From assembly GCA_941918925.1 (NCBI GenBank), contig OW799236.1, forward strand, positions 88,841,716-88,905,715: DNA of 64,000 bases. Direction: 5' to 3'. The notes beneath the pieces are model-generated. The model was not told the DNA's origin, did no database searches, and was given only the letters and a program-made list of their open reading frames with translations. Shown here piece after piece: positions 2,268-60,736 of the stretch (position 1 is its first letter; the number at the start of each line of letters is the position of its first letter). The translations under genes and the position numbers were made by a program. This DNA comes from Phyto melanocephala. Its lineage: Eukaryota; Arthropoda; Insecta; Diptera; Rhinophoridae.

Positions 2268-2502
2268 ATTTTCGACCAATACGATTATATAAATTAAACT
2301 TTGAGGATCGAACACTCTTCTCAGCAGCTCCGCCTCGAAGTTTTGGAAATAATATGTTAAGGACGAATATTCAACATAGGAATAAAGTATCACATAATCC
2401 TACTGTAAAACTTGGAACTACAGTGGCTGAATCTAATACAAATGTTAAAACAAAAATTCGTAAAACATTTATTGAAAATTGGATATTTAATAACCTTAAC
2501 AA
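2268..2502 (+). CDS. TEP-I alternative exon A (bait-like region)
   Basis: The acceptor is GTTTCAG ending at 2267 and the donor is AA|GTACGAG at 2503. The exon is 235 nt, entering with two bases that finish a codon and leaving with two bases of the next, giving about 78 residues. The first half is rich in Arg, Asn and aromatic residues (starts FRPIRLYKLNF), and the middle reads like an unstructured bait segment. The end is the conserved anchor KIRKTFIENWIFNNLN, matching the sequence that follows the bait in alpha-2-macroglobulin family proteins. It is the longest of the eight variants. An upstream ATG in the same frame lies in the intron and is not a likely start. It should be spliced only as an alternative to exons B-H. 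Confidence 0.8.
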
Positions 2503-2696
2503 GTACGAGTATATGGTTGCATATCCCTCATTTGCGAAAGAATAGGGTTATAACTTGAAATCTGTACATTGGAAATTAAGAACTACAAACAGTTTGGCTT
2601 TCGATTGAGTTAATGAAGTTTCAAAATTCAAAATCATTTTACCTTAAATTACATTTTTATTTTTTAGTTATCACCCTATTATTGCTTATGAACAAT

Positions 2697-3078
2697 GGGC
2701 CAATTCAAAGTAGACTCTCATATTGTACTATGTCATATAATTCATATTAATATGACTAGTGACTTTGAACACCTTTTGTTAACAAATTATGTATTTAATA
2801 CAAGAAAGAAGACAAAGAGATGACGCTGTTAAAAATTGTATGTATACAGGAAAGAATAAAATATAAAATATTATCTCTGAGATGTGAGAAGCGAAGAAAT
2901 TCTCTCTGAGAGACAGTATGGTTAAAAGTATAACATAAACAATTTCTTATACATAGGAAACAAATGTGTAAAGTCATATTATTTTTTTTGTATGGAAATT
3001 ACTAACAAAAATTTTATGCATACATAAAACAATATTTGTACTATATATGACTGATATGCAACCACTTTGAATTGGCCC
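2697..3078. mobile_element. MITE, 382 bp, TIR GGGCCAATTCAAAGT
   Basis: A perfect 15-bp terminal inverted repeat begins GGGCCAATTCAAAGT at 2697 and closes with its reverse complement at 3078. The interior is AT-rich with no coding content. The superfamily is not clear; the flanking AAT on both sides may be a short target duplication. It sits in the intron between alternative exons A and B. Confidence 0.7.
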
Positions 3079-3799
3079 AATATGTTTTTTAATTTATGTT
3101 GTTTGTGTGAAAGTGTAATGTCTTTGTTATTGTGAGTTGTGAAGTTTTCTTTATTTATACGTTTACAATTTGTAAAGAAAAGTGTTTTTTTGATGAATAG
3201 AAACTATGCAAAATGAATATAAAACTTTAAAAAAATTTATAAATTTCAGTGAACCAAAAAAGTCTACGCACACCTAACAAACCCAAAGAATACTGTATTT
3301 TACAATTTTTTTTACAATTAATTGTCTTCATTATTTTAATTGAATTTTATAACAGAATCTTAATATAAATAAATTTTATAAAGGAATCTTTTAATAATGC
3401 CATTTGAAAGGAATTTTTCTGCTGAAGTGTACAATTTAATTTAAAATTGTTTCAGTATTCAAGGAGCTACAATATACAAAAGCGATAAAAGTTGTAACGA
3501 ACACATGCTCAAACGCTATATACCCTTTAGCTAAATATTTAACTAGTAACGTTTTGAACCAGTCACATAACTAGTTGTAACTATCCAATCAAATTGACCA
3601 AAAAACATACTCACCATTGCAAAATTGAAGAGCTCTTTGTTTTTCGCACCCTACAGATAATATTGGACTACGTGGTCCATTTTAGCTAAATTGACTACTT
3701 ACAACATGGTCCTATGTTATGCAGTCTTAAACCATATCATTTTTAAACAAAAGATTGTAGTTAAACGACAAGTGTTCGTATTTTAACGATTACATATGG

Positions 3800-4345
3800 G
3801 CAATTCCATGTCATCGTACGTGACATTTGTACTCATATAAAGTGAAGTAATTTTTGCAAAAGTTAGAGTAACTGAAACAAAATTAGATCTTTATGTTCCA
3901 TTCATATATATTCATATTTATATTCCATTAAAAAAAAATTAATTATATTCGAATCACTGTTGTCTAAAATATCCACCAAAATAAGAATAAATCGTACGTG
4001 ACATAAAACAGAAGTGATTTTGAGGTAAATATGGAAATATGAAAAAATCTGCGAATCTTGGGAGGTATTTTTTCTTTTTTTAATTTCTTACACTAAGCCA
4101 AATATTTTTCATTTAAAATCACTCATACTTAATTGAAAACAATTTTGAAATGATTTTGTAATAAATTCAATTTTATATCGTTCGTGACATATCGTACGTG
4201 CCAGGTTTTTCTTTAATGGTATTCTTAGGTAAAAAAATGTATATTATGGTAAGAAAAAAAGTTAGTCTAAATTAGGTGCTCTTGCGACTGTTTAAATACG
4301 AATGACGGAGGCAAATAATGTTTTTGCACTACGTACGTGACATTA
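3800..4345. repeat. Cluster of CGTACGTGACAT motifs
   Basis: Five close copies of (A)TCGTACGTGACAT occur in about 530 bp, near 3815, 3993, 4181 (CGTTCGTGACAT), 4195 (CGTACGTGCC) and 4333. The spacing is irregular (about 178, 188, 14 and 140 bp). The sequence between is AT-rich with no reading frame of note. This could be an interior of an unknown transposon with repeated binding sites, or a regulatory cluster. It lies in the A-B intron. Confidence 0.5.
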
Positions 4346-4539
4346 AAATAACATCCAAGGGAAATCGAAAAAAATTCCGCTAGTTTGACTCTATATTTTC
4401 TTTTTTCTTATGGATCTTGTTAATTGTTGTTTTTACCTGAATTTCAAAGCATATTTACAGTTACAATTTATTTTTACAATTTAGTCGCTGGAAAAGAAAT
4501 AGTTGATTGCAATTATTTAAAATATTTAAGTCAAAGAGA

Positions 4540-4920
4540 TAATCAAATTAAACTCTTATTATTGCTCTTAAAATAATTCAATAAGCTCGTAATACCTGCG
4601 TTTTTATGCCAAGAGTTTTTATTTTTACAGTCGTGGTTGACATATTCATGGAAATGCCCATATGTTGTTGTTAAGGCGGGTATATTGGTCGTGTAGGTAC
4701 TCCATTGAGTAGTGACAAAGAGTAGTTTTGAGACTACTCCGACAATCTTCGTCGTGAGTAGTGATTCCAATTCTTCATTTTCAAACTTTTTCGGCTGACC
4801 AGGCCTCTCCTTATCTTCTGTGTCGAAATCACTATTTTTAAATCGCGCAAACCATGGTTTACAAATGATAATGTCTGATAACCCCTAAAAACATCTTGTT
4901 TAGGCACAAAATTCGACATT
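4540..4920 (-). pseudogene. Mariner transposase N-terminal remnant
   Basis: On the minus strand a start at 4919 gives MSNFVPKQDVFR, like the first residues of mariner transposases. Further along, in shifted frames, come pieces resembling the DFDTEDKERPG...KKFEDEELE linker region, and a HKNAGI-like piece similar to the KAMGMI segment. Several frameshifts are present and no DDD catalytic part is seen, so this is a dead fragment of the DNA-binding half. It lies in the A-B intron in antisense orientation to TEP-I. Confidence 0.55.
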
Positions 4921-5335
4921 TTTATTATTATAGCGATTGAAATAATGCGTGTTTACACTTTGGCGTCTATCGAATGCTAAATTATAATGACAGATGTTTA
5001 CCCTCCAGAATATCATATTTTTTATTATTGACACAAACCATATGTGATAGTTATGTCATAAGTTGTCCAAATTGACATTATTAACTTGTTCATCCAATAG
5101 TTGAAAATTAATGCTTTAAAAAATAAAATATCTAACATATTTTAAAAAGCTAACATGAATAGTGTGTATGAGATGTGTATTACTCACTCTTTGGTATTAG
5201 TTATCCTAAGATTAAGATAATTACAGAACATTGACATTTAACAGTATTAAGTAAAACACAAAATAATAATAAAATAATTTTGGCAGATACACCTACATAT
5301 ATGTATGAAAACATACTAACATAATCACCTTTCAG

Positions 5336-5546
5336 ACTTTCCTCGATTTCCTATTTATAGACCAGTGTTTGGTCAATTTGGTGTACCGGTACCACTAAAC
5401 TTTCCACAATCTGCCCTTGCATTTCGTCCACCACCAGCAGTATTAAAACAAGAAGAGCTTTTATCTAGTCCCATCGGTGCCAATATTGTAGAACCAAAAA
5501 TACGCAAAGAATTTATTGAAAATTGGATTTTCAATAACATAAACAA
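5336..5546 (+). CDS. TEP-I alternative exon B (Pro-rich bait-like region)
   Basis: The acceptor is CCTTTCAG ending at 5335, with a good branch-like ACTAAC upstream, and the donor is AA|GTATAA at 5547. At 211 nt it encodes about 70 residues. It begins FPRFPIYRPVFGQFG and is rich in Pro, Phe and Val. The end is KIRKEFIENWIFNNIN, almost the same as exons A and E. Exon E has identical length and the same FP-IY--P-F start, so B and E look like recent duplicates. The phase is identical to the other variants and allows only one of them per transcript. Confidence 0.85.
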
Positions 5547-7506
5547 GTATAAACGAATAAGTCAAACAAATTAAATAGTTGATAAATATTAAGTTTTAAC
5601 AAAATTGCTTATTGCTACTAACAAAAAATGAGGTGAATTTAAATATTGTTTGCAAGTTAAAGTAAGTAAATAATTAATAATTTCATTCTACATCGATAAT
5701 AAATTATTTTAATCACATATATTTTATAAACATACAATATGTACATATAAACGATTAATATTGATTGAATACATTCTTAGCTGCCAGGTGATAAAAGGTT
5801 CATTCGTTTACCATAAGAGAGTATTTTGTACCGGGTGATAAAAGGTTCATTCGTTTGATTCTTTTGTTAACGAATACACTCTTGTAAAACTAGGTAACAA
5901 ATTAAAAATCTTTTGTGTAAACAAACGAACATAAAGATAGCCAGCCATCTTTAGTATGAGCTAGTAACTTTGTTAAATTTCAACAGATTAAGCAAAATCA
6001 ATGAGAGTTCGAAGACTTGCAAAAAGAAAATGTTTTTTAAAATCCCTTTAATATTTAACTGATTTAATTAAATGTATTAAAATAATAATAAGAAAAAGGT
6101 AAAAGATTAGATATTCACTGTGTAATGCACATATATATTTAGCGCTAACATCGAAAATAACGTAACTGACTTAATTTTCGAAATTGAATTTTTGACAACT
6201 TATTTCAATTGAAAGATTTAGTTAAATAAATTAAATGGCCTAGTTCAATCTTGTAGTTTAATTAGGCTCTTAGTTCTCTCTTTAAAATGTACAGCAAAAT
6301 TAATTATAAAAAAGGTAGAGGGCGAACCTCGAATTAAGCTGTTCATGTGAACATAGTACCATGATAAATCTGTTACTAATACACACATGTACACATGGAA
6401 AAAATCAACCGCGATAAAAAAACTCGTGCTCACGATTTACGGAAAAAATAAAATTATTGAAATCATTTCAAAATTTTTACTATCAAAACTTTTTTAAATA
6501 TTTTATGTAAACTTATTTCCAATAATAAAACTTTTTTATGTAAGTTTAATGATTTTCTGGTTGATCTTAACGCTAGGTCTCCACGTAGCAAATTTTCATT
6601 GCTAAGCATAAGAAAAAACGTCGGCAGAATAACGGCACTTTATTGCTAAAGTGTATTTATTTTCATTGGGTGGAGAACACGACACAAGTAATTTATTTTT
6701 AAAATTTAATATTTTTGTTGTAACTTTTATGGTTTTTTTTGGAATACCTCACTCTAAATTATTACCAGGTAAAATTATTTTAATTTTCCTTTGTTTCTGC
6801 AAAGAAAAACAAAAAATTCAAAGAAAATTAAACGATTTTGACAGCTAATTGCGGCAATAATTGCTTAAGCAATTAGCAGAGCAATGATTGCGCAATGAAT
6901 TGCTACATATAGCAATTTGCGGTCTACACGTCGCAATCTCTATTGACGCAATCAAATTTGACAATTGCGGTAATAAATATTGCTACGTGGAGACCGGGTC
7001 TGGATCGGGTAAGGAATAAAGAATACAAAATCTTAACAACGCTTGTTTTGACTTGTAATCTACAGCTTGACTGCAGCGAAGCTGAAAAAATTCGACTTTA
7101 TATTTTATATTAATTTGTGAATTACTTTAATTTTGATTACCGCAAAATTAAATGAGGTTATTAAAATACATGTTGAATTGAATCTGACTTGGTAAAAAAA
7201 AATAAATTTTAAAAACCTTTTCATTTAACTTTTCTCTGTGTTATTTTCACGGTTACATTTAGTCTAACCGGTTAGAAATCTAGACGACAAAAATAACATA
7301 ACTGAAAAAAAAATCTTTATAAACAATTAAGGTAAAATAAAGTTTCATAGGACATTGGCAGAATACATTTAAGTTTTCGTAAAAAAATCCTAGGCAATGT
7401 GGCAATATTTGTTTTGTGAGTTACGATATTTACTTATGGTTAAGGCTCCATATGTATGTATGTAATTTTGTTTTCATCAAGACAATTAAGAATTTTTAAA
7501 TTTCAG
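5547..7506. other. B-C intron: direct repeat, nothing coding
   Basis: A segment GGTGATAAAAGGTTCATTCG occurs twice, near 5787 and 5833, 46 bp apart. A MITE sits at 6576-6995 (separate entry). The remainder is AT-rich with no recognisable gene. Confidence 0.6.
6576..6995. mobile_element. MITE, 420 bp, TIR GGTCTCCACGTAGCAA
   Basis: GGTCTCCACGTAGCAA at 6576 is mirrored by its reverse complement ending at 6995, so there is a perfect inverted repeat of at least 16 bp. The interior holds further TTGC/GCAAT repeats near both ends and no reading frame. Superfamily unknown. Confidence 0.7.
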
Positions 7507-7705
7507 CACGACGAACCGGCAAAAAAATGAAACAGTTCATGAAAGAAGATGTCGATACTCGCAGAAGTTTTGAAAATGTTTCTACTAAGTCATTTTTACA
7601 ACATGTAAAAATAGAATATGAAGAACATAAAATTACAAATGTTGTACAACATATCGAAATTCGAAAACACTTTGCAGAATCCTGGTTTAACGAAAATATA
7701 AAAAC
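7507..7705 (+). CDS. TEP-I alternative exon C (Lys/Arg-rich bait-like region)
   Basis: The acceptor is AAATTTCAG ending at 7506 and the donor is AAAC|GTAATT at 7706. At 199 nt it encodes about 66 residues. The start RRTGKKMKQFMKED is strongly basic with clustered dibasic sites, followed by a mixed-charge stretch. The end is EIRKHFAESWFNENIK, a diverged form of the anchor that keeps the Arg-Lys, Phe, Glu and Trp. Because the exon ends in AC, the junction codon with the constant exon is ACT (Thr) rather than AAT (Asn). Clustered basic residues would be natural targets for trypsin-like proteases; that is inference. Confidence 0.8.
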
Positions 7706-8168
7706 GTAATTGTTAAAAGAAGTTGACATAAATATCTGAATCTTGGCCTGTCCAATGCATTTGAAAATAGTTTAGCTCATTATTACAAGCTTTAATAAAA
7801 TCATTTGTTATTTTAGTTGTAAATATTGTTAAACGAAACTGTTATAAGAAGCATGTATTATGTATATGATTTCTTTTTTTATCGATTTAAAAAACTAATG
7901 TTAGCAGGATCTAATATTAAAACAAGATGGGGTTATAATGTCAAATCAGATTTTGTGTCTTGTACTTATGCCAGCTAAATAGTTTATTGGTTTTGACCTC
8001 CTCCTTTTTGGGTTCAGAACGTCTTATAGCAAGATTCTACTGACGTGTTTTCGTTTAAATTCTTCTTTGCTTCAAAGAACGTATGTTTCCAATTGTTTTC
8101 CCATGCAAGTTTCTCAGGACCAATGTTTAGCTCTAGAACAAGCTTTTTACAACACTGCGTTATTGTTT

Positions 8169-8715
8169 ACTAGCTGATCCAGCAAACGTTGTTTTGCCAT
8201 ATAAATTATATCTACAAAATATTTTTACATTAAAAAAAACGTAAACCATATGTGTTCTACGGTATGCAGATCTATCTTAGTTTATAATTTCATCGCAGTC
8301 GTTACGTTATTTAGGTGAGGCATAAACTGTCCCTTGGGGTAACTCACCCTTAATATTCAGGAGTATGAAAAATAGATGTTGACCGATTCTTAAACGTTTA
8401 TTTCTGCTTTGGCTGGACTATAAACTGTGTACAATGTAAAGAAAAATTATAAAAACTATATCGATGCAAGTACATAATTAAAAAAGTGGGCGTTAAAGTA
8501 GGCGTGACAAAAAAGTATCCTATTAATCATACCAGAGTCTTAGTTATAAAATTTGAAAATTTCATGACGATCGGTCCAGCAGTCTGGCTTACCTGAGGGG
8601 GTGTGAAAAAAGGCGTGGCGTTAAGAAGTATGAAAAATAGATTCATGAAAATCGGTCGAGCCATTTCGGAGGAGTTTAATCACAAACACCACGTTACGTT
8701 ACGTTATTAGATGAT
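8169..8715 (+). mobile_element. Helitron-like non-autonomous element
   Basis: It begins ACTAGCTGATCCAGCAAACG, a terminus typical of widespread arthropod non-autonomous Helitron/HINE-like repeats. The interior has two copies of CGATCGGTC(C/G)AGC-type text and motifs AGTGGGCGTTAAAGTAGGCG and GGCGTGGCG, shared with the arrays at 1-1160 and 51.4-52.9 kb. No Rep/helicase coding is seen. The right boundary (ACGTTACGTTACGTTATTAG) is approximate. Confidence 0.5.
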
Positions 8716-9800
8716 AAGCAATGCCACTCCATGTAATTCGTTATTGTGAATGTAAAATTCGTAAAAAATAAGGGATCATCCTGGATACGCGCTTAACACA
8801 AAACAACAATAAAAAAAGAAAAAAACTTAATGCAAATTAAATTTCAATTTAAACATAAAAACAAAAAATTATTATGTAATTTTCTCAAAACGACTTGCTA
8901 TGGTTGTAGTGAGGTGTGAAAGACGTACATGTTTTTAGCAGCACATGTACTCTTTTATATACAACGCCTTAAACAGTACGCAAATGTACTGATTTTTACT
9001 CTTTGCACTTCTTTGAACTGGAATCCAGCCTGATCCCGATTTCACCTCAAGCTGTTCCTATAATCAACGATTGTTCATATTAAAAGGAATAAGTGTGAAA
9101 TATTCTTGCACGAAATATATCAGACCAAGGCGAATTGACTATAAGGTCAAAACAAAATAATGAAGAAAGTTAATGACATTAACACTGCACTGTATAGCAC
9201 TTTTTAAAGTCAAGTGTGTACTAACAAGAACAGCGAACTTGAATTTGACACCTCAGACCATGCGACTTATGAATATGGAGAAGTATTCAAACGGATGCCG
9301 TTTAATTCTTGTAAAAGTTTATCTTGAAAAAATATCCTATCTGATAATGCTCCTACATCTTATAAGTAAATTCACTACGCGTGGTCAATTGGCTTGGTTC
9401 GTTGCACTAATTGAATCTTGTTCGCGTAAAAAGTTCATTGCATAGCGCTGCTGGAAATGTTTATTGCCGAATGGAAATTCCCGGCCACACATTTTCTCAC
9501 TGCGATTATATTTTATAGTGAACGACAAATACTAGGACGAACAATGGCCTCCTTCTTCATTAGTGTAAATTTGGTCTTAGATATTGTAACTAAACGTCTA
9601 ACCTTCGATTCATTTGGCACATAATTACTACCGAAAACTTGTCGTTATTGGCGAGCTGTTATGGCAAAACGTTGACCATAATTACAATGTGTTTCTACAA
9701 TTATTAAATATTGTTTGTCGCGTGGTCTGTACGTGATAACTGTCAAAAGAAATCCTTTAGCAGTTATGTGTGCGTTAATAAAATGTTTCTTCCTATTTAT

Positions 9801-10896
9801 TAGGGTTATCGACTCGGTATAACAACCGGTGGAAAACCCGGTTTTTTCCTCTTTCAGCTGGCGGTTTTTTCTAAATGTTGATTTTTCGAATATCGAATAC
9901 ACCGGTTTTTTTATCCGAAAAAGCCGGTTTTTTATCTTTTTAAGTTTATTTTCATATATCTTTGTAACCAATCGTACCATAGTATATTTAGTACGCGAAA
10001 AGTTTCCAAAAATTAGAAAATAAAAACTACTAAATATTCTTCCATAATATTGTAAGGAATTTATTTGTTGTTTTAAAAACTAAATGTAAAATAAGAAAAA
10101 TAATTGAGCTTAAATATTATTTTTTTATAGGATATAAACCTAACGTTAAAAGTTAAAGGTAATTGAAGAATAAACTTAGCTAATCGATCACTTTTAGGTT
10201 AAAAGTGTAGTTACAATAAAGAAAAACCAATAACCCCTGTTTCCAGATCCTAATTGTAATTAATGCCATTGAGTATCTGTCAACTCAAATTTCAATTAAA
10301 TCATCGAACAAACTTGTTTATGCCTACATTTGTATGTCTGTCACGGGTATAAGAAAGAATTTTTAAAATGAGATTTTAAAGATTTTACCTTTGGCCTTTA
10401 AAATGTATTTCAAATTACAGAAATCATTTCAAACAAAATACGTTAGTGCATATTAGTTTAAAAGATCTATTTAACATTAAAAAAATTTACAGAAGGACAT
10501 ACAAAAAATAATAACAGCCTTATAAAAAGTCTTATTTATTTATGTATTAATTTATTTTACTTGTAAAGAGTACCTTTTGTCCCTTAATTCAACTAATTAA
10601 AACTAAATTAGTCAACTGAATTCATGTCAGTTGTTACGTAATTGTGCAGCCAAACGTATATATTTAAACTGTAAAAATTTCATATTTAGATATAATTTTT
10701 ATTATTATTTTTTTATTATTTAATTTTTTTAAATATTTTTTAATTTTTTTTTTAAGGAATTATTTTTTATATATTCGAACCGGTTAACCGGTTTTTTCTC
10801 AAATTTCAAAATATCAACCGGTTTTTTTTTTAAATTCTAAATTTCAAACTATTTGAAAACCGGTTTCTTAGAAAAGTCGAAAAATCGATCACCCAA
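9801..10896. mobile_element. hAT-like non-autonomous element with ACCGGTTTT repeats
   Basis: Imperfect terminal repeats are TAGGGTTATCG at 9801 and CGATCACCCAA ending at 10896. The flanking 8-mers CTATTTAT (9793-9800) and TTATTTAT (10897-10904) match at 7 of 8 bases, as expected for an old hAT target duplication. Both subterminal regions carry many copies of ACCGGTTTTT, likely former transposase-binding motifs. No transposase is recognised inside. Confidence 0.55.
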
Positions 10897-11985
10897 TTAT
10901 TTATACTGTTTTTTTTTGACGTCGGTGTACTGTTTTCCGAATTTCAAATCTAACTACCCTAGTTGTAGTGGATATGCACTTTTATAAAAAAACATTTTAG
11001 TTTTTGAAAAATATAAATTCGTACCGAAGAATAAATTGAAAACTGAGTAAGCCGTACCAATTACTTATTTGACTTCGACTTAATTTACGAATGTTTAGAT
11101 TGACCTACGGAAACTAAACCAATAGAGCTCTCACATGCTCTTACAAACTCTTGAGTTTTTGGTAAGACAGAAGGAGAGAATAGGCGAAAATACAAAGTTA
11201 GTTATTTTAGAAAATTTCTTATGTGTTTCTCATATGTACATCAACATTTATACAACCACACTTGATAAATAAAATTTGTCAAATGAAAATTTCCCAAGAA
11301 AATTTTAAAGATAATTCGAGAAAATTTGTTTAAAAAAAATTTGTGTATCTGAGTTAAAGAAAAAATAAGAAGAAGAACAGATTAAACAACAAGTGATAAA
11401 TCTGGCTTCAGGAAGTATCGCGTAATGAGAAATCGCAAATAAAAAATTTAAAAATTTTCTACAAATTTTAATCCTATGAAAGCATTTGACATATTTTACG
11501 TGTAAAGTTGAAGTTCTTTTAAGAATTTAAAATCCTCTGTTAATGGTGGCTTAATTGTCATGTTTTTTTTTTATCATACAATTATCCATTTGAATAGCTC
11601 TTTCCTCTATATTTAACTTTTATTTTTTTTCTTAATGATGTAACGATTTTTTCTTCCTTTCGAACTCCTGTTTTTTCACCAAGCTTGCCACTTGCTTAGA
11701 ATTTACACTATTTATATAACAGCATTTCACATATTTTGCGTGTCACATATTTAAAAATGGTCCAACTTAAAGTTTACTTTTTTATCTAAATATAATAACA
11801 CACTTGTTAATAAGAGGTTTTTATTTTAAAGATATTTGTAGAAAAGCCTTCCGACTAGTATCGACATATTTAATAAAATATTTATGTATAAAAATAATTC
11901 AGTTTCTGTTGAAAATATAATAATTAGGTTTTAGCCATTTTTCTTTCATCTTATTTACATGAAACTCATTAATTTACTTTTTTAG

Positions 11986-12157
11986 CCCAACGATCTGCAG
12001 AAGATATAGACGATGAAGATTTCGAAGAACTTATTTCGGAAGATGAAACCGATTCTTTTGATTATCATCATTTTACAACAGAAACTCAATTGAAAAAGTT
12101 TATTATTAAAGAACGTAAAAACTTCTTGGAAGTATGGCTTTCGAATATAAATCTTAG
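11986..12157 (+). CDS. TEP-I alternative exon D (acidic bait-like region)
   Basis: The acceptor is CTTTTTTAG ending at 11985 and the donor is AG|GTTTGT at 12158. At 172 nt it encodes about 57 residues. The first 30 residues are extremely acidic (SAEDIDDEDFEELISEDE), followed by a His/Thr patch, then a Lys-rich stretch and the anchor KERKNFLEVWLSNINL. There is no ATG near the start, so it is easily missed by simple frame searches. The phase matches the other variants exactly. Its last two bases AG give a Ser codon at the junction instead of Asn or Thr. Confidence 0.8.
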
Positions 12158-13114
12158 GTTTGTCTGCATAAACTTGTCAACGTAAACTAGTCGGCAATGT
12201 TTTGAAATTAATCAAAGTTTAATTTGGATTGCTTATTAATCATTTTTTTGATTTGAATTATCTCAGTGTATATGTTAGTTTTATTAAAACAAAGTAGACT
12301 TTGTACATTTATTTATTTCGTACTGAAATCTTAAAATTTTAATTTTTGGACACCTTTACACAAGGCATATTCACATGGTAGTTTCGTCGCAACAGCGGAA
12401 AAGCATAATGTCAAAAGTTGTTAAATTTGCCATTGTTTATTTTCTTTTGCTGGGATGGAAAGTAAGAGTATATTCGGTATTATAAAATTTAAATAAATTA
12501 TTTTTTAACTAAAATTGCTACACTTATTTATAATGTTGTTTCTATATCTTTCATTTTGGATTTAACAAATATATCTCCTTTTCTAAATCAAATAGTAATT
12601 ATTAAAATAAATTACCACATCTTTTACATCTGTGTTATATGAATTAACTTTGACAGCAATTATTTGTTGCAATTCGCCGTTGCACACACCTGTATGAATA
12701 TGCCTTGCCTTCATACTTGTTGTATACTACTTATACTTGAGCTGTCGCTTTTGCTGTTTATAAATTCTTTGACACAAAGTCCGTTAAAATTGTCATTTAG
12801 ATATATTTTATTAATCGTGCTATCAAACGTATTTTTATAAATTTATTTAAAATAACTAATGTTTGTTTTGAATGGCTAAAGTCAGAATAAAAACCTAGGA
12901 AATAGTTAAACCAAAATTGTTTCGAAAGTGAGTGACTTGCTTTATCTGCTTAGATTTTCTTTTGATATCGTTAAATAGTATTATTTTTTTGCTACAAAGC
13001 ATTGGGTGTATTTTTCTATGTGTAAGGCAAATTTATGGCAATAGCTGGTTTTAAAGGTATTTACAAAAAAAAAAACTACCTTATTCATAAAAAAATACTT
13101 CAGGTTTATTAAAG

Positions 13115-14527: not shown

Positions 14528-14960
14528 AACTAGAGATGGGCACAAATATCGATACTTAAGGAAAAAATATCGCTATATATCGCCAATATTTCAAAAAACG
14601 GAATAATTATGCATCGATTCTTATTTACGAGTGCCGTTTTCAGTATCTTTTTCGATATTTTCAGAGCTCCATAAATTTTAGACTTTTTGTAATAATAATG
14701 GCTGGCATCACCGCATGCATCATATGTTTTTTCACCATAATTTATTTCTCAGTCGTATTAGAGCTCTGGTCGGGTCAAGAGCTCGCGCGTCATTGCCATT
14801 ATCTCTTAAGGGCAATCAGGCCGTCCTTTTCATCCGTCTTCGAAAGTTTTACGTCTCACTCTCGCGTGGATAATTGTGTGGCGTCGCGTAACTGTGCTTT
14901 GGATACAGTTTCCATACTATTCTACAATTAACCACGTGCATTTATTTTAATTGGATTAAC
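14528..14960 (+). other. Possible hAT left end and GC-richer leader-like region
   Basis: TAGAGATGGGCAC at 14531 resembles the terminal repeat of many hAT-ZBED elements, though no matching right end was found. A GC-richer stretch at 14698-14931 contains an open frame with no recognised domain. Confidence 0.35.
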
Positions 14961-15260
14961 TGGAGGAGTACCAACTAAACTCAAAATTTACAACTGGAGG
15001 AGTACCAACCAAACTCATTTTCGTAACTGGAGGAGTACCAATTAAACTCAATGCTAACTGGAGGAGTTCCATAAAACTCAGTATAATTATTTGTTCAGAT
15101 GTCTCCGAATTCCTATACAATGGTATAGGTCGACTTGCGGTAACTGAACTAACGTTTTTTTAACTGGAGGAGAATCATAAAACTCAAGCTGTAATTATTG
15201 TTCAAGTGTCTCCGACTTCCTATACAGAGGTATAGGTCGAGTTACGGAGCCGGAACCTAA
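14955..15260 (+). repeat. Nested tandem repeats of AACTGGAGGAGTACCAA
   Basis: The unit AACTGGAGGAGTACCAA followed by a short run ending AAACTCA occurs near 14958, 14991, 15025, 15055 (GTTCC variant) and 15162 (AATCA variant). After the fourth and fifth copies a longer module follows with GTCTCCGA, TTCCTATACA and GGTATAGGTCGA, itself duplicated about 110 bp apart. TCCTATAC and GTATAGG can pair as a small hairpin. The function is unknown; the repeats precede the hAT-like coding remnant. Confidence 0.65.
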
Positions 15261-15343
15261 GTGGAATACCCTGGCTATTTGGTCACGTACCTCTGCCAAA
15301 CAATCTCAGAGTCCAACAAAAAAAAAATTATTTCTATGACGTC

Positions 15344-15640
15344 TTGCTTAGCCATTCCAATTTTAAATTTAGTCCGTTAAATGACGCATCAATCATCTCC
15401 TTTGTCCACTTTAGGGTTTTTCTGGAAAATAAAAAAACATATTTTTCTTTCTCAATAGCCACCATATTGGACCCAAAGTTCAAGCGTATTCTTTTTACTT
15501 TTATAACAGCTGCCTCAAATGCTATATTAAAAATAAGCGATATTATTAGATTAGAACATAGTAAAAGGGGACAAGTTTCTCCCGCTTTAGGGTCTGCTTA
15601 AAGAAGCGGATTGACAGGGGATCACATAAAGCAAAGAGTA
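15344..15640 (+). pseudogene. hAT transposase remnant
   Basis: Translation around 15450-15500 gives FSIATILDPKFKRILF, resembling the ATLLDPRFK motif conserved in hAT transposases of the ZBED/Hermes type. The frame stops at 15601 and no dimerisation domain follows, so this is a short dead fragment. It lies downstream of a hAT-like terminus at 14531 and may belong to the same insertion. Confidence 0.5.
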
Positions 15641-16564
15641 CTTCTAATGTCCATATCCGATGAGTACAGGTTTGAATAATATGTAAGCGTATGGTGATGG
15701 TTTCGCTACTTATTTGATTCCATTTAAAATTTTGTCGTTTATTTTTTAAAGCTTAAATATGCGGAGCTGACAATATGTTTTTGTTGATTTTATTATTATT
15801 TTTTGTTCTTATTAAATTGTTTGTGGAAATTGTTTGCAGGGTAATTTATTCTGGTAGTGGTGACAATACAGCTAACTATTTTTAAGTGTCCAAGCATATG
15901 TCAAACTGCATATATAAAAAAGAGAGACAAAAAACTCTGCCTGTGCTCGCTATCACCTTTTACAATTATACCATGGCTATTTGTTTGACAATTTACATGA
16001 AAAAACCCGGCTCTGTTTCATGAGAGAAGTAGAAGTATATTTACTTTCAAATATAAGTGTACCCTGTGCCTACCAAAAACTAAATATTTATAACAAAAAA
16101 TAATCAGATGCTTTTTTAACAACACCATGATAGTGATCTGTTATTTTCATACCCTTCACCTGTGGTGACAAGGCTATACGTAGCCTTGCCATTTAATTTG
16201 TAATTTTTACAATATAATTTTCCGATCTCATTAAGTAAAGATATTTTTTAAAAGCTTATGAATAGGGTAGTCGATTGAACAATGACCGTTTGTCCGTGTG
16301 TTGGTTAAAATCAACTTTGAGAATTTACCACATATGGCAGACTCTGCGATCCATGGATCAGCATGTGGTACTAATCTTTTTCGGAATAAATCGCTATTAA
16401 AGAACAAAACAATCAGTATAAGCTTTCTAAAACACGAGCAAACAAACACGACTTCCCCTATTTTTTAACATATGTACATACATACGAGTATATATTTTTG
16501 TAATAGTTGGACTTATCGATATACCATTTCCTCAACCAATAATCCTGCAAATTACACTTTTCAG

Positions 16565-16775
16565 ACGACTTCCCAATATATTTAGATAGACCAATGTTTC
16601 TACCATTACTACCGGGACCTGTACTATTTGACAGTATTGACAGTGTAAGAGTAACTGCATTTGGATCAGGAGGTGCTTTATTCAGCATACCACAACCAGC
16701 AGTTGTACAAGCTGATGTACAACCAAAAATACGTAAAGAATTTATCGAAACATGGATTTTCAATAATATAAATAA
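16565..16775 (+). CDS. TEP-I alternative exon E (hydrophobic/Pro bait-like region)
   Basis: The acceptor is CTTTTCAG ending at 16564 and the donor is AA|GTACGA at 16776. At 211 nt it has exactly the length of exon B and encodes about 70 residues. It begins DFPIYLDRPMFLPLLPG, continues with Gly/Ser and Val/Ala-rich sequence, and ends KIRKEFIETWIFNNIN, the closest of all variants to the family ETW anchor. Identity with B at both ends and divergence in the middle suggest duplication followed by rapid change of the central segment. Confidence 0.85.
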
Positions 16776-17329
16776 GTACGATAAATTTTTTATTATGTGT
16801 AGATTTAACATGGTTAACAAATATATATGGTTTTCTGTTACTAATCATTGGAAAGTGTTATGGGAAACTGTTTTTTTTTTTTTTTTTTTTTTAATTATGG
16901 CAAAAATTTTTACTAACAGCTTACCATAAAAAACTATTAATTTAGTATCATTCATTTAGGTGGTTAAGATTTTGGTTTACTTATTTATTATTTAGGTTAA
17001 TATTAAAAATTATGATTTGATCCATCCAAAATGTTGTACACCTTTAAACAGAGGTTTAACAGAGTAATGTTTAACCTTGACCTCAAGTACCCTGGTCCAG
17101 TGTTTATACACTAGATCTCAGTTCATACCACTATAATATTGGAATGACAGTATTAGAAAATCGAAGATCGCAAACACCTTTTTAAATTTTTCTTTAGTTT
17201 AATGGCCCTTAGAGCTTTTAATATTAAAATTTTAATACCGAAAGCATAACAACAATTTTAAAAAGCGAAAATACTATTACACTACTCTCTATTTAGAGAT
17301 GTATGGCGAATTTATTTTCGGTATGGTTT

Positions 17330-17570
17330 AGGTAGGTAGGTAGGTAAGGCTGGTGCAAAGTTACCCTCACACCTTCACCCGGAGACCATTACGGTCCATT
17401 GTGACGCCTTAATAGAGAGAAGAATAGAATAAGAATAGAAATATTAAGGATAGAAGAGAAGAAGAAGCAGACCATTGCAGAGTCTCCGGCAGGAAACGAA
17501 CCCGCAACCCCCAAACAACTGACTTGTCCTTTTACCGACTAGTCCACAGGGGCACTATGGTTTGATGTAC
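17330..17570 (-). mobile_element. tRNA-derived SINE candidate
   Basis: On the minus strand, reading down from about 17562, there is GTGGACTAGTCGGT, which fits a pol III A box, and about 35 nt later GGGTTCGTTTCC, which fits a B box. The downstream part runs to a TACC-repeat tail at 17345-17329. The layout (tRNA-like head, unrelated body, short-repeat tail) is that of a SINE. No intact tRNA cloverleaf was established. Confidence 0.5.
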
Positions 17571-18059
17571 AGAAATATGAACTATATATTAAAAGTGATC
17601 ATTACAACGCCCACTTCTTGTATTCCAGCTCACATTTATTATTTTTGTATTCAAAGATTCAATCGTTATCATGAGATTTGAATTTTTAAATGCATCAACG
17701 GAAAAACTAAGCAGAAACGTTATTGTCTATAGATTGTTTTTGGATCAACCGATGTGGCGACAATTTTCTATTTTTACATTTTTCTCGTCACTATTTGTCC
17801 TTTTAACGAAAACAATGGTGGGTGTTTCTGTCCTTACTTTCCTAAATAGCTTGTATGTCTAACCATAATGGAAGATGTTAATTGTGAGTCACACCTTAAC
17901 GTAAAGTTTTTTTGCCAAACGTAATTTGACATTTCTTTGTGTCTAACAAATTCAACCAACCTGGAGCCGAATTACGGCATTCGATATCGATTGAAAATTC
18001 AATCGAACATGGACGTTTTCCTTGCATTTTGTATTGGATTCTCATAAAAATTCTATAAT

Positions 18060-18720
18060 TTTCGATCGATATCGAATGCTTAAATACGAAAAGCAGCGTT
18101 CAAATCGAAATGCATTTCGTGCACTTTGTGATTATTTTATATATATATATATGTGTTCCTCTAACTCCCATTGGAGCATAGGGCGCCAAAATTATTTTGG
18201 TCAGCATAATCGACCACATATATCCACAATCGCAAGAATTGTGCGCAAATTTCAGCATATGGGGTCTGTAGGAAATGTGAAAGCACGTGTGCATGCTCGC
18301 CCAGTTCGTTCTGCGTAAAATATAGCTGTTATTCACGATAGTGTTGGAAGAATTGTGAGCAAATTTCATGGTGAATTTACAAAGATAGTCATTTTCAGCC
18401 ACTAGTCACATTTTGACCTCAGTGAATTCGTTAGCAAGAAGAATTGCCGCATTTGGCCAAATGAGAATCCACGTGTTATTGGTAAAAAGCCGAAGCATCC
18501 ACAATAACTGTTTGGTGCGGCTTATAGGCTGTCGGCGACATCGGGCCGTAGTTCTTCGAAAATGAGTTCGGCCAAGAAGTTACCGCGAACTTATTGTGCC
18601 CAGAAACTGAGAATATGGACTTGGTCGATATTATATCTCAGTGTCGTTGAAAATATGGACCATTTCGGATAGAGGTAGGCCACCAAATCTATGGCGTGCA
18701 CTTGAAAAATATTTTGTTTT
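18060..18720 (+). pseudogene. Tc1/mariner-superfamily transposase remnant (N-terminal and middle)
   Basis: Translated pieces FRALCDYF and then, after about 55 inserted bases, GQHNRPHISTIARIVRKF and GSVGNVKARVHARPVRSA resemble the helix-turn-helix region of a common insect IS630/Tc1/mariner-like transposase. Further down, in another frame, come KNCRIWPNENPRVIGKKPKHPQ-like pieces from the catalytic half (given here as positions 18440-18500). Stop codons and frameshifts break it. The short insertion contains one arm of the 29-bp inverted pair at 18155 and 19533. Confidence 0.6.
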
Positions 18721-19982
18721 ACACAATCATGTGATCATAGATCGCTTTATAAAAATAAAAAATATTAAGATATTTCTCTGAAAACTTTTTGATTTATTTA
18801 CAGTTAACATCGTGCGTTTCGGTAGAACCACCCTTTATATAGTAGTGCTTTAATAATATTACATAAATGATAATTTTAGGGTCTCTTACTTTAAATAATA
18901 TTTATACAGTCTTGAAAATGCTCTTTATCGCCACTAAATAGTTCTTAAAAAAAATTCAATTGGGTACAAAAAAGATAGAAAAAAGGTGACACACAAGACG
19001 ACAGCAGGTCACCAACTACAATCTGCCAAAATTATAAGCACAAGTTTATATGAAAACGATTTTTTTAACACCATCACAGGTAAATACACAGCTACAATAC
19101 CACTTTGTGTTTGTACTCATGTTAGGCTTATTTCTACGTTCGTAACGTACGGTTCACACCAGCCATCGATTTGTTCAAACAACTAAAAATTTTTTGTGCG
19201 CACATGAATTTGCCTGGTGTGGACCCCTGTTGTCGATGTTTTGTTCTTGCTCAAACAGCGTTGTCAGAACATCTGTTTGAACAACGATGTCTGATATTAA
19301 ATGGCATTTTGAATATGAAAGAAAGAGACGACACATAAAAATAGCAACAAAATGCACTTTATACGTATTCACCATATCAAAAAACATGAACAAGTTTTTG
19401 ACAGTTTCTCTGCCGACGTTTTGTTCTAGTCTGAACAAATCAATGGCTCTTCTAGACGTAAAGTTAGATGTGCTCTTATCATAATGTCATAGCCATAAGA
19501 AACCCAAATTAAATTGGTTTCTATGGTTATAGCCCTATGTTCCAGTGGGAGTTAGAGGAACATATATATATATGGTTATAGCAACAGTCAATCATTGTTA
19601 CCCATGAGTTTGATTCAAACAGCTATTTTATATGGTTATTGTTATGCCACTTCTAATTTAAGCTTAAGGCATCTTAAATCAAATCCACGTAAATCTAGTT
19701 AATAAAAGTATATTTGTATACTTTTTTTTTGCCCCAGCCCAGACTTGTTCACATGAAATCCGTACGTACAAGTCTTAATATCCCTCTCATCAGGGTGTCT
19801 AATATCACACAAACTTTACAGGAAGCATGGTTTCACAAGGCTTATAATTTGTTTTGGACTTTCAGAGTTTTTCAAAGTTAGTAATGTTTCTTAAAATATC
19901 TTATAATTCAATTGTTATGTAAAAAAAAAACTTTAACTGTGCACAGATATATAATTAAGGATTCATAATTCAACTTTTACAG

Positions 19983-20160
19983 AAGATTACAACAATTTAA
20001 TTGACATCAGATTTGAAGAAGAACTTGTAAGCGGTATTGCATATCCTGAAACTATTGAACTCATAACAATAACTGAACAAATCTCGCCAGATATTGAACA
20101 AATCTCACCAGATATTCGTAGCAATTTCGAAGAAGTTTGGTTTTTCAAAATACTTATTAC
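19983..20160 (+). CDS. TEP-I alternative exon F (with internal EQISPDI duplication)
   Basis: The acceptor is AACTTTTACAG ending at 19982 and the donor is AC|GTAATG at 20161. At 178 nt it encodes about 59 residues. It begins DYNNLIDIRFEEELVSG and ends DIRSNFEEVWFFKILI, a strongly diverged anchor that still keeps Arg, Phe, Glu and Trp. The seven-residue segment EQISPDI is repeated in tandem just before the anchor, so the exon seems to have grown by a 21-nt duplication. The preceding exon cannot end in T, because the first codon would then be TAA; this constrains the upstream exon. Confidence 0.75.
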
Positions 20161-20992
20161 GTAATGTTTTTTTAGATTTTAGTACATATCCATTGTTTAA
20201 ATAGTGTCAGTCAAAATAACATCACCACAAAATCTGCCTGGCTTAATGTTCTAATGCGCAATTTCTACTAATTTATATATTTAAGCAAAAATTATGGGCT
20301 GAACAAAATTTTTTTTGGTTAAAAAAAATTTTTAGTGCAAAAAAAATAAAATCAAAAAAAAAGTCACAAGTAGAAAGGCCCTAACTCAAAGAATTGTAAT
20401 TTTTCAACAGAAGGTTAAAACGAAATAGAAACTGTATTAGCATAGTGTAACTTTTTTTTGTAAAATTGTTATTTTTGGTTAAATTTTTGTGCTAAGATGA
20501 ATTTGTATAAAATGTATTGGAATAACTACAAATCAAAAATTCGTAAAAAATTCCAGTTAGGACCTTTCTACTTGTGACCATCGACATAAACAAATTTTGA
20601 AAAAATAAAAACCTCTTTGAACTGCTATTACCTGATTGGTTAATTTGTCTTGGTTTGAATGAATATTCACTGCAAATTGTATTGGCACGGACAATTTGTA
20701 ATAAGACAATTGAATTTAGTAGATAATTGCTCTTGTTAACTTGGTGTTAATGTGTATCAAATATGACTTTTTAAAACTAATACTGGTGGAGCGTTTTTTT
20801 TTTTTTTTGTTAAAGAAAATATTTTTTCTGCTTTATTTTGCTTTTGCTTGCACATCTAATGGTACTTTGAAAAATGTTAATTAAGTCAAATAAAGCACCA
20901 CTTAAGAAATAATGAGGAAAAATTAAATATTTAGTTTTTATTTTAAGCAAAACTTTTACTTTTTCTAATTTTGGAGCAAATTTACAATTTTG

Positions 20993-21420
20993 TATACCCT
21001 TCACTGTGGTGCCAAGAGTATATATCTGTGGCTTGGAGCTAAAAGGGCCAATGTCACTTTATTCCTCTTTTGAGTTTATCATTGCATTAGATTTGTTTTC
21101 TTGCTCTATTTCATTATGGTAAAACAGCTAAAGTCATACTTAACCCAGAACAGCTTCATAAATAAAATGCTGGCCAATGTCACTATGAAAGCACCTATAA
21201 AAGTTAAAGTTCAATTCCAATTTTCTCACAAGTAAATATTTTGACATTGACCCTTTTAGCTCCAAGCCACAGATATATAGGTTTGTCATTCTGTGTGAAA
21301 TTTCTACAATTTTCATTTCCGACCCCGCAAAGTGTAGATTTTCTGGGCGCTTATAACTACCTAGGGGAGTCGATTGAGCAATGTCCTTCTCTCGTGCATT
21401 GAGTGAAGCACTAAAACACA
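20993..21420 (-). repeat. Dispersed repeat DR-1, split by a MITE
   Basis: Minus-strand DR-1 sequence is recognised by GTATACCCTTCACTGTGG at the left and, after the MITE, GGTTTGTCATTCTGTG, CATTTCCGACCCCG and GGGGAGTCGATTGAGC. Removing 21021-21278 restores continuity with the DR-1 copies at 26.4 and 38.2 kb. Confidence 0.7.
21021..21278 (+). mobile_element. MITE copy 1 (TIR ATCTGTGGCTTGGAGCTAAA)
   Basis: Terminal inverted repeats of at least 28 bp beginning ATCTGTGGCTTGGAGCTAAA flank about 200 bp of non-coding DNA. Insertion is at a TATA run (TA duplication), suggesting a Tc1/mariner-related MITE. A second copy lies in opposite orientation at 22652-22916 in the same intron. Confidence 0.85.
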
Positions 21421-21449
21421 TATTGAATTATATGTGGAATCAATCAAAT

Positions 21450-21975
21450 CTATTCAGAATTTCTAAGATATGAGCAAATAAACGTTATTGTCTCTAATTT
21501 TTTTAGGATAATTTCAACCTTATGATAAATGTAAATAGTAAAAGGGTTTTCAATAGGAGTGATGTATGACGTACATATGTCATGAATGGCACGTTCAATA
21601 TTGATTTGTAAAGCTTGAAGATAGTCTGGTTTATTTCGAAAGATCAATGACTTTAAATAAACCCACAAGAAATAGTCTAATGGTGTTTAATCACAGCTTC
21701 CTGGAGGCCATCCTATTTCACAATTTCTTGAAATAATCGAATCTCCAAACTTTTCTCGCAATAATTCAACTGTTGCATTTGCTGTGCGGCACGTAGCCCC
21801 GTCTTGTTGGAACTGAATGTTGTCAAGATTAACTTCTTCCAATTTTGGCCATAAAAGGTTGGTTATCATCGATCTATACCGATCTCCATTGACAGTAACG
21901 GTGTTACCAGCTTCATTTCGAAAGAAGTACCGTACCGATGATTCCACAAGACCGTAAACCACACCAAACTGTCAA
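21450..21975 (-). pseudogene. Mariner-superfamily transposase remnant (C-terminal half)
   Basis: The minus frame from 21962 contains NIQFQQDGATCRTANATVEL, the second catalytic Asp region (QDGA) of an insect IS630/Tc1/mariner-like transposase, followed by a GWPPGSCD segment. A TAA then replaces the expected Leu codon, after which PLDYFLWVYLKSLIFRNKPD continues to 21450. One nonsense mutation and missing N-terminal coding make this a dead copy. It is similar in type to the + strand remnant at 18060-18720, which covers the complementary half. Confidence 0.65.
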
Positions 21976-22259
21976 CTTAGGTGAATGTAATGGTTTTTCA
22001 GGAATAATTTGTGGATTTTCTTCGCAGCAGAATCGACAGTTTTGTTTATTTACTGCACCACTCAGATAAAAGTAAACCTTGATTTAGTAAAAAAAAAAGT
22101 GATCGAAAATTGGGTTCATCGAATTCATTCGAATTGAATGACGTTTTACTTAGAATTCAGTTGTATCGATTGCATTTCACTTAAATAAAAAACTTTTGAA
22201 TTTCCCTAACAATAAGTGTGTTGTTTTTAAAGAAATCATATCACTCTTATTGGAAAACC

Positions 22260-23270
22260 TTTTATATGTTGCTAGCTAGGGCTATTTGTGAACAGTTCTA
22301 GAAAGATCAGTGACTAAACGGCTAAGTTATAGACAAGCAATATCAGTACGAATATATAAAGTTTCTCTAGCTTCTTTGTAATTTTTTCACACACTATACT
22401 GATAGCAAATTAAACCATAGTCTCAAAAACTATTAGAGAGAAGAACAAACAAATCGGTTTAAAACTGACTGCGATATAAGCAGAGTAGTACAACTGCTTC
22501 GGATTTTCTTCTCAATTAACAAACAAGAATAATTTTTTTAGCTTAAACTAGAAAGACATCAAACAGGGTCACTATAAATATAGAATTAAAGAGCTTGACT
22601 ACAGTTAATATGCAAGATGGCGTCCTAAAAAATATTAAGGATATATGGGTCATATCTGTGGCTTGGAGCTAAAAGGGTCAATGTCAAAATATTTACTTTT
22701 TAGAAAATTGTAATTGAACTTTAACTTTTATAGGTGCTTTCATACTGACATTGGCCAGCATTTTATTTATGAAGCTGTTCTGGGTTAAGTATGACTTTAT
22801 CTGTTTTACCATAATGAAATAGAGCAAGAAAACAAATCTAATGCAATGATTAACTTAAAAGAGCAAAAAAGTGACATTGGTCCTTTTAGTTTCAAGCCAC
22901 AGATATACAGTAGTTACGACTTTTACGTCCTTTAGCCCCACAATATTGGTATCAAATAAGAAAGTTTGACCAGCAGAATACGGTAAACTATGAAAAGTGT
23001 AGAACCCAAGATGGCATCCCAGACAAAAAGGCGGATAATTTGTTGGTTAACCCTATCAATATGGGTGGCTGGTTATCAAATGGAAGGGCTTGACTAGTGG
23101 AATGCAGTTAACTATGTTAAGATTAATAATTACGTCGGAAATAATAAAGAAAAATGGCGTGTAATATTAAGTCTGAAATCTAGGCTACGGTACAATGTAA
23201 TGAAGAGTATTTGCAAATTCGGTACGACACAATGTAGCAGTGGCTTGTTGTTATTTTATTTATTAAACAT
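22260..23270 (+). repeat. Dispersed repeat DR-2, split by a MITE
   Basis: Contains repeated modules such as AAATCGGTTTAAAACTGACT, CAAGATGGCGTCC, CCCAAGATGGCATCC and the terminal AATTCGGTACGACACAATG. Related copies are at 28240-28740 (+), 48350-49440 (-) and 63060-63610 (-). No protein coding was found; the class is unknown. Confidence 0.6.
22652..22916 (-). mobile_element. MITE copy 2, inverted relative to copy 1
   Basis: The same terminal repeats as copy 1 bound about 255 bp, and the interior matches copy 1 in reverse orientation at nearly every position compared by eye. It is inserted in DR-2. Confidence 0.85.
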
Positions 23271-23450
23271 AAGGGCATGAAAAGGACCTTACAATCGACA
23301 TTTCGTTGACAGTTTTAGGGAATTAAATTAGCAAAATTGAAAAATTATTATAAAAGTCCTTAACGCTTCTACATACATTTAATTTAGCACTAACGTTTAT
23401 AGTTTTCTTTTTTTTTTTGCTTCTGTGTTAAACTCCTTAATTCATTCTAG

Positions 23451-23619
23451 ATTTGACAAACAAATTGGCACTTAAAAGACCACTTAGTATAGGGACACGA
23501 TTTGGTTCAAACATTCTCTCAACACTTATGGGCGGTGGCATTGAAATAAATAATGTGGGTTCAACTGTAAAAATACGAAAAAATTGTCTGCATGTTTGGA
23601 TTTTTCAAAATTTTCAAAA
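23451..23619 (+). CDS. TEP-I alternative exon G (Gly/Ser-rich, cysteine-containing)
   Basis: The acceptor is TTCATTCTAG ending at 23450 and the donor is AA|GTAATT at 23620. At 169 nt it is the shortest variant, about 56 residues. It begins LTNKLALKRPLSIGTRFGSN and has a Gly/Met stretch (STLMGGG). The anchor reads KIRKNCLHVWIFQNFQ: Cys replaces the usual Phe, and the Glu before Trp is missing. It is the only variant with a cysteine, so the product would gain a free or newly paired thiol. It could be a decaying variant or a functionally distinct one; the frame and both splice sites are intact. Confidence 0.75.
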
Positions 23620-24396
23620 GTAATTACAAAAAGAAAAACATCAAAACAACAAATTTTTATTTATTAAAATTTTTTCATTAAGATATCATGCATAATAACA
23701 GACTAATCCGAGTTTACCGATTCTCAACTAAATCGTTTAGAAATTTTGTATGAAAACTTTCAAACACAAATATATCGGTGGCCTTTAATAAAAAATGTGT
23801 ACTTTGATTTCGTTCGAAATCGCGTTTTTAACTTTTTTAACACCCGTGACAAATTTCATAACTTATGGTTAAGAATAAGGGATTTATAGTCACATAATTA
23901 AGCCAGACCTCACTTCATGCATTTAAGTTTCCTCCAGTTAAATCATAAAAAATCAAGTTACGCCCTTTTTATATTAGGCCACCGATATGTATTTCATTAT
24001 TATTATTGTTTTAAATACAAATCAAATATATTTAGGGCCATATTCATAAAAAATATTTTATTATTACTAAAGGCTTATTTGACAGATGTTGAACAGAAAT
24101 TTGTCAAATAAGCCTTCAATAAACTTAAAATATTTTTTATGAATTATTATACACAGATCTATTAATTTAATTTTATATGAAAATTTATAAAATTAAATGT
24201 TAAGAATATATAAAAAATATCGAAGCGTACCATACAGAATCTAATCAATTTAAACGTTTTGAATCTGTTAACCAACTCTAAAATATTTGGTGTGAAATTT
24301 TCTAAATTAATAAACTTCTTGTGCTTCTTTCTTTTAAATAAAGTTATAAGTATATTTTGCTTTAATTGTTGTTTTTAATAAATATGTATTTTTAAG
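23620..24396. other. G-H intron with foldback
   Basis: At 777 bp this is the shortest intron between variants. It holds the foldback at 24037-24146 and otherwise AT-rich sequence. Confidence 0.6.
24037..24146. mobile_element. Foldback MITE, ~110 bp (family copy 2)
   Basis: The left arm CATAAAAAATATTTTA pairs with TAAAATATTTTTTATG at the right, with inner GGCTTATTTGACAG and TTGTCAAATAAGCC arms. Same family as 14032-14145. It ends about 250 bp before exon H. Confidence 0.75.
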
Positions 24397-24604
24397 TAAA
24401 AAAAACTAAAAAATCAAAACCTGCATCATCTGAACAACACTACATACCTATAATGGGTGCCAGTTTACATTCTAAAACATCAACCACCGCAAAGCCTCAT
24501 AAATTGACATCTACAGAGGCCAGTCTAGATCGGCAGAAAAATGTCGTCTCAGTAAGAACAAATTTTCAAGAAACTTGGTTATTTTTGGAGGAATATTTAC
24601 AAAA
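24397..24604 (+). CDS. TEP-I alternative exon H (Lys/Ser/Thr-rich bait-like region)
   Basis: The acceptor is ATTTTTAAG ending at 24396, fixed by an in-frame TAA just upstream at 24393-24395. The donor is AA|GTAGGC at 24605. At 208 nt it encodes about 69 residues. It begins KKTKKSKPASSEQHYIP and is very basic at the start, then rich in Ser, Thr and Lys. It ends VRTNFQETWLFLEEYLQ, keeping the ETW form of the anchor. The acceptor has a weak pyrimidine tract compared with the other variants, so inclusion may need help from a splicing factor (inference). There is no internal start codon near its 5' end. Confidence 0.75.
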
Positions 24605-35753: not shown

Positions 35754-35816
35754 GTAAGTAGACATGAAATGAATAGAAACAATAAATAATCGAAATTTGT
35801 TTTCATATTTTTTAAG

Positions 35817-60711: not shown

Positions 60712-60736
60712 GTAAGACTTATAAATAAAATAAATA

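Follow-up and report, generated by a model that had tools for sequence, protein, structure and literature searches.

The stretch of Phyto melanocephala DNA analysed here (64 kb in full, which we call the window and on which all coordinates are numbered) carries on its plus strand eight candidate alternative exons, A to H, followed by three common exons. Judging from its sequence, the locus is a thioester-containing protein (TEP) gene of the A2M/TEP/complement family. Common exon 1 (29537-30620) encodes the rest of the A2M domain and the first part of the TED, with an intact thioester motif GCGEQ at 30210-30224 (NKPYGCGEQNMVNF). Common exon 2 (30700-31218) encodes the remainder of the TED, and common exon 3 (31281-31850) encodes the receptor-binding domain and a Cys-rich C terminus that closes with the stop codon TAA. 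The Pfam domains A2M, TED and A2M_recep (PF00207, PF07678, PF07677) were found in these exons. The cysteine-rich tail, SSLCDICEKDECGQGCENKP, is present in the relatives as well, and such a tail has been reported as an insect TEP signature (PMC7016707). The solved relatives of the common part include CD109, AgTEP1, A2M and complement C3.

As relatives we used the best 120 of 1595 proteins with an E value of 0.001 or better, out of 7984 scored candidates from a collection clustered at 90%. Among the relatives listed, the closest are Lucilia, Calliphora and Cochliomyia proteins. The common part is 82-87% identical to the 13 best entries, all of them from blow flies. Identity falls to 70-72% for the top entries from Musca, Stomoxys and Haematobia and to 56-57% for four entries from Drosophila. 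On these values the host would be a calyptrate fly that resembles blow flies most. The Cochliomyia entries are named thioester-containing protein 2 and the other close matches are named CD109-like or alpha-2-macroglobulin-like; several blow-fly copies exist.

Anatomy of the variant exons

An earlier note on this DNA had placed eight exons upstream of the common ones. All eight were recovered, with the same boundaries and lengths, by a scan of positions 1-30000 for AG...GT stretches with a length of 1 mod 3 and a Trp anchor at the end. Exon A (2268-2502), of 235 nucleotides (nt), encodes a basic segment and ends in the anchor KIRKTFIENWIF; two more acceptors lie inside it, at 2325 and 2328, and a second possible donor follows 6 nt after the first, at 2508. 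Exons B (5336-5546, 211 nt, anchor KIRKEFIENWIF) and E (16565-16775, 211 nt, anchor KIRKEFIETWIF, 37.9 bits on the anchor profile described below) are proline-rich, and exons D (11986-12157, 172 nt, anchor KERKNFLEVWLS, 20.7 bits) and F (19983-20160, 178 nt, anchor DIRSNFEEVWFF) are acidic. Exon C (7507-7705, 199 nt) ends in the anchor EIRKHFAESWFN (20.2 bits), exon G (23451-23619, 169 nt) has the weakest anchor, KIRKNCLHVWIF (19.3 bits), and exon H (24397-24604, 208 nt) is basic and Thr-rich, with a weaker acceptor that ends in AAG. From A to H, the net charge before the anchor is +8, +2, +3, -10, -2, -10, +4 and +7. The introns separating the variants are 777-4407 nt long, and 4932 nt lie between the last variant and the common exon. 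Further variants may lie upstream of the window.

Each variant exon has a single open frame, and its two alternative frames are each interrupted by three or more stops. All eight are entered in phase 1 and left in phase 2, so that two bases complete the entry codon and two bases are left at the exit. The third base of the exit codon is the T at 29537 of the common exon, and the resulting junction residues are N, N, T, S, N, T, N and N for A to H. The terminal anchor, for which the earlier note had described an invariant Trp, has the form R-x-x-F-x-x-x-W and is conserved across the eight exons, but it is degenerate in C, D and G, though above chance; exon G has NCLHVW where xFxExW is expected.

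Evidence from scans and from relatives

A strict scan of 1-29536 for the anchor and splice sites gave eight matches, corresponding to seven distinct exons, as A was found twice via its inner acceptors. Exon H was missed because of its AAG acceptor. Dinucleotide shuffling (n = 200) gave a mean of 0.005 matches and a maximum of 1, and the same scan was negative for the entire minus strand of the window and for 32000-61000. A loose scan gave nine matches, eight of which fall on the seven exons already recovered (A again being counted twice), whereas the ninth is false and lies in the open frame of E. Its shuffle mean was 0.075, and it gave four matches on the minus strand. A 12-residue anchor profile was built from the relatives only, with anchors obtained from 107 of 117 segments. 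Across the six frames of the 64 kb, at 8 bits or more, it gave eight matches, which are exons A to H, with scores from 19.3 (G) to 37.9 (E). The maximum in 40 random first-order-Markov sequences (29.5 kb, one strand each) was 14.3 bits. Each run of this control spans less sequence than the six frames of the window; despite this, the five-bit gap and the eight-for-eight agreement make it unlikely that exons A to H were recovered by chance. In codon score, D and F lie above all 85 intronic open stretches, D being the best, and B, C, E and H lie above all but four of them.

The scan of 1-30000 listed 13 donors, which are those of the eight exons, the alternative donor of A at 2508, and 16854, 16856, 19850 and 23888. 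The donors at 16854 and 16856 lie within the open frame of exon E and have no anchor-profile match. An exon candidate at 23741-23888 also lacks a profile match and was dismissed as chance. A ninth exon at 19709-19850 was rejected, as the profile built from the relatives gives its motif NITQTLQEAWFH a score of -2.2 bits; stronger-looking acceptors for it after 19737 and 19742, read by eye, have phases that do not fit.

The position of the variants in the protein was judged via the relatives, in which the alternative segments are located between a constant upstream part and the A2M core. The varying part is the segment between a TNANYPY marker and a PDTITSW core; three of the 120 relatives lack the core motif and were dropped, so that 117 segments were compared. 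In Rhagoletis zephyria (five annotated isoforms), Anastrepha obliqua (five) and Drosophila albomicans (six), the isoforms show no difference up to the marker and none once the core begins. Those of Cochliomyia hominivorax (two) and Lucilia sericata (X1 and X3) are identical outside the segment too, and the seven Eurosta isoforms have an identical C part and an N part that is 96-98% identical. Exactly one anchor is present in 105 of the 117 gene models. The pattern found none in nine models, four of which (P0012, P0013, P0018 and P0081) lack the N-terminal part, and three more (P0011, P0076 and P0082) are counted as anchorless only since the pattern misses their anchor. In P0001, the last residues of the segment could be aligned to VRKHFPETWIW in CD109 and to YRTNFQESWLW in AgTEP1. 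The variant exons therefore encode the hypervariable region and, following it, a conserved piece of the macroglobulin fold. This hypervariable region is reported to correspond to the A2M bait region (PMC7016707, PMC5489563). Eurosta, Rhagoletis and Lucilia sericata have strongly acidic segments too, with net charges of -9 to -11. In an AlphaFold model of the Drosophila relative P0070 (predicted local distance difference test, pLDDT, 71.2; predicted template modelling score, pTM, 0.54), residues 68-187, save 143, are below pLDDT 50. They make up the variable segment together with its anchor and the residues that precede the segment. The low confidence of this region agrees with an exposed loop, without proving anything.

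Because the upstream exon lies outside the window, the entry phase was checked through the relatives. If this exon ends in one G, each variant must start with a GNN-coded residue. With a leading G, exons A to H start with D, D, A, A, D, E, D and V. Of the 85 relatives that have the marker, 82 have A, D, E, G or V at the junction, the exceptions being P0010, P0011 and P0117; the phase lock is thus common to the flies listed.

When the 120 relatives were compared with the window by tblastn (E value 1e-3), exons A, B, E, F and H and the three common exons were matched and nothing else in 1-31850; the match to F is a single one, with an E value of 1e-4. This search thus gave no TEP coding in 1-2267. 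The hypervariable parts alone were compared with 104 targets, using 200 shuffles and uncorrected empirical p values. That of exon E matches Lucilia cuprina P0001 with a score of 83 (shuffle maximum 52), and that of exon H matches Cochliomyia hominivorax P0008 with a score of 102 (shuffle maximum 47). The likeness of D to Bactrocera (SEDETDS) is only a lead, because its scores lie within the shuffles, and that of H to D. arizonae P0112 is likewise only a lead.

Beyond 31850, the same tblastn search matched only a second TEP gene, from 60544 on. N-terminal exons of this gene occupy 60514-62728 on the plus strand, with MG2 detected by Pfam and MG1 just below the cut-off, and their identity to fly TEPs is about 32-54%. 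The two TEP genes are separated by a stretch that contains a UDP-glycosyltransferase-like gene (35098-37059, plus strand), with PF00201 in 35773-36264 and 36466-37059 and none in its first open stretch. A 423-residue open frame on the minus strand (54901-56169) is probably a retrotransposon remnant, as it encodes an RNase H domain and also matches zf-RVT weakly, at a score under the cut-off. Two intronic open frames on the minus strand, 4546-4884 and 21690-21971, have no Pfam match; by eye, they resemble fragments of mariner-type transposases.

Probable use of one variant per message and the rival explanations

All 256 ordered subsets of A to H were joined, with a leading G, to the common exons. 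Only the eight single variants gave a frame that is open to the final stop, and the other 248 subsets (0, 2, 3, 4, 5, 6, 7 or 8 variants) contain a premature stop. It had been claimed earlier that none, two or three variants would break the frame at 29537, and this held, as all such combinations stop prematurely. It had also been claimed that four or seven variants would keep the frame. The frame is indeed restored at 29537 in these cases, yet translation of the exons in between runs in a wrong frame and meets stops, so that these combinations are not open either. With A or C instead of G as the upstream base the outcome is the same; with T, seven singles are open and F is lost. Since any other number of variants gives a premature stop, only messages with a single variant can encode the full thioester protein. 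On the sequence, then, one variant per message would be needed for a full protein.

Taken together, the locus is very probably a Tep2-type TEP gene, of whose coding part the window holds roughly the 3' half, with eight tandem alternative exons, one of which would be used per message. Each variant exon would encode one complete hypervariable, bait-like segment that ends in R-x-x-F-x-x-x-W of the macroglobulin fold. Splicing would link one variant in phase 1 to the constant exon that lies upstream of the window and in phase 2 to the common exon that starts at 29537, and each choice would place a different exposed, protease-accessible segment ahead of the same thioester effector part. All eight exons may well be used, and the segments may serve as protease baits or as recognition loops.

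Several observations weigh against this reading. The upstream constant exon and the N-terminal domains are outside the window. Exons C, D and G are not matched in the tblastn search by any of the 120 relatives at 1e-3, and none of the 104 targets is significantly similar to the hypervariable part of A, B, C, D, F or G (uncorrected empirical p of the best scores 0.10, 0.09, 0.30, 0.08, 0.77 and 0.50, respectively). Clustering at 90% hides isoforms of the relatives, and therefore this absence of counterparts means little. Targeted protein searches with the C, G and D segments (332 candidates, none at an E value up to 10) and with the H, F and A segments (355 candidates, none at an E value up to 1) were also negative; they failed to return even P0008, which matches H, and their silence therefore carries little weight. 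The codon scores of A and G are undistinguished, being exceeded by 21 and 20 of the 85 intronic stretches, respectively, and in exon A one wrong frame outscores its own frame. Among the relatives, the long models P0009 and P0062 have no anchor, and three of the 117 models (P0010, P0110 and P0117) have two. These two-segment models are possibly annotation artefacts and possibly cases of real double inclusion. Finally, as regards docking or selector elements of the Dscam type, the 380-nt exon flanks, compared among themselves, showed no excess of shared 9-mers or of 10-mer complementarity over chance.

The last result bears on how exclusion could work. The introns of 777-4407 nt, and the 4932 nt to the common exon, disfavour simple steric exclusion, and Rfam at gathering scores gave no match in the window. 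Filtering by the reading frame is the only exclusion mechanism that we can see in the sequence. It is possible that the exons are alternative but that combinations form freely and are afterwards removed by nonsense-mediated decay. The premature stop in all 248 non-single combinations would fit such a scheme. So would the length of the introns, at which adjacent splice sites would not hinder each other sterically, and the fact that the flanks yielded no docking or selector elements. Yet free combination of eight exons would presumably waste most transcripts, and a single segment is the rule in the models of the relatives (105 of 117), although annotation is biased towards open frames. We consider free combination somewhat unlikely. 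Control of exon choice at the level of splicing is plausible, and we infer that the splicing machinery itself, rather than the decay of wrong messages, would enforce exclusion.

Alternatively, only a subset of the exons may be functional, with C, G and perhaps A being decaying leftovers of tandem duplication that are open by chance or because they are recent. The broken anchor of G, with the lowest anchor score, would agree with this, as would the codon scores of A and G, which lie inside the intronic distribution, and the lack of tblastn matches and of hypervariable counterparts for C, D and G. However, all eight exons keep a length of 1 mod 3, one open frame, both splice dinucleotides and an anchor above every null value, and a decayed copy would be expected to have lost at least one of these features. 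The further candidate at 19709-19850 does fail on its anchor score (-2.2 bits), and exon D, one of the unmatched exons, has the best codon score. Loss of function in part of the array thus seems unlikely to us. That several tandem TEP genes have been compressed here, with some variant exons belonging to other copies, is very improbable, even though the same strand has the start of a second TEP gene near 60514 and two or more Tep2-like copies seem to be present in Lucilia sericata (P0003/P0007 and P0006). Within 1-29534, tblastn with the 120 relatives gives no TEP coding besides A, B, E, F and H, and the anchor profile has no matches other than the eight variants; each variant also joins in frame to the single common exon.

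If transcripts confirm a single gene with eight alternative exons, it would show clearly how a fly can diversify an innate immune effector from one gene, under the simple rule of one variant or no protein, and this gene could offer eight different bait segments. As variants such as E and H can be traced between species, it could be tested whether bait segments are kept for particular proteases or are replaced by selection. A more doubtful extension is that the array is a panel of chemically opposed baits (acidic D and F, basic A and H, proline-rich B and E) locked by frame arithmetic. Tissue- or infection-dependent choice would then retune which proteases trigger the protein, and a wrong splice count would switch the gene off.

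Comparison with known systems

The principle is not new, as such an arrangement has already been reported in flies, molluscs and crustaceans. For Drosophila Tep2, five isoforms produced via alternative exon 5 have been described (PMC5489563, PMC5584532), in agreement with the five alternative exons that the earlier note had given for D. melanogaster, and mutually exclusive exon events of Tep2 have been seen in RNA-seq (PMC11765297). The gene described here is like D. melanogaster Tep2 in being a thioester protein gene with alternative exons for a hypervariable, bait-like region, and it differs in having eight variants instead of five; the common part is about 56% identical to the D. simulans entry P0074, which stands in for D. 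melanogaster Tep2. The suggestion that this is an enlarged Tep2-type system therefore stands in part. A Tep2-type array is well supported by homology, by the position in the protein and by the isoforms of the relatives, but it is enlarged only with respect to the five variants of D. melanogaster. Among the relatives listed, Eurosta has seven distinct segments and the gene models of D. albomicans are labelled up to isoform X17. In Musca, 16 Tep1/2 members are reported, with isoforms marked in the Tep tree (PMC4195910). Among the papers that full-text searches listed on dipteran Tep2 alternative exons and on blow-fly TEP isoforms, none describes this locus, judging by titles and abstract openings.

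Outside the insects, Biomphalaria glabrata BgTEP2 is reported to have 12 mutually exclusive tandem exons over 30 kb and a conserved C-terminal part, in a family of genes with 35-43 exons (PMC7016707). It shares the tandem layout, by which alone we liken the two, and the mollusc gene has more variants. Chlamys farreri CfTEP, with six mutually exclusive exons, and Fenneropenaeus A2M-2, with six variants (both as cited in PMC7016707), are likewise variable in the same region but belong to other phyla. Nearer to the present gene are the blow-fly genes (Lucilia, Calliphora, Cochliomyia) named Tep2 or 'CD109 antigen-like'. Their common part is 82-87% identical to the one described here, their segment boundaries are the same, and they have several annotated isoforms. 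Exons E and H have counterparts among them, the other hypervariable segments being unpaired in the 90%-clustered collection.

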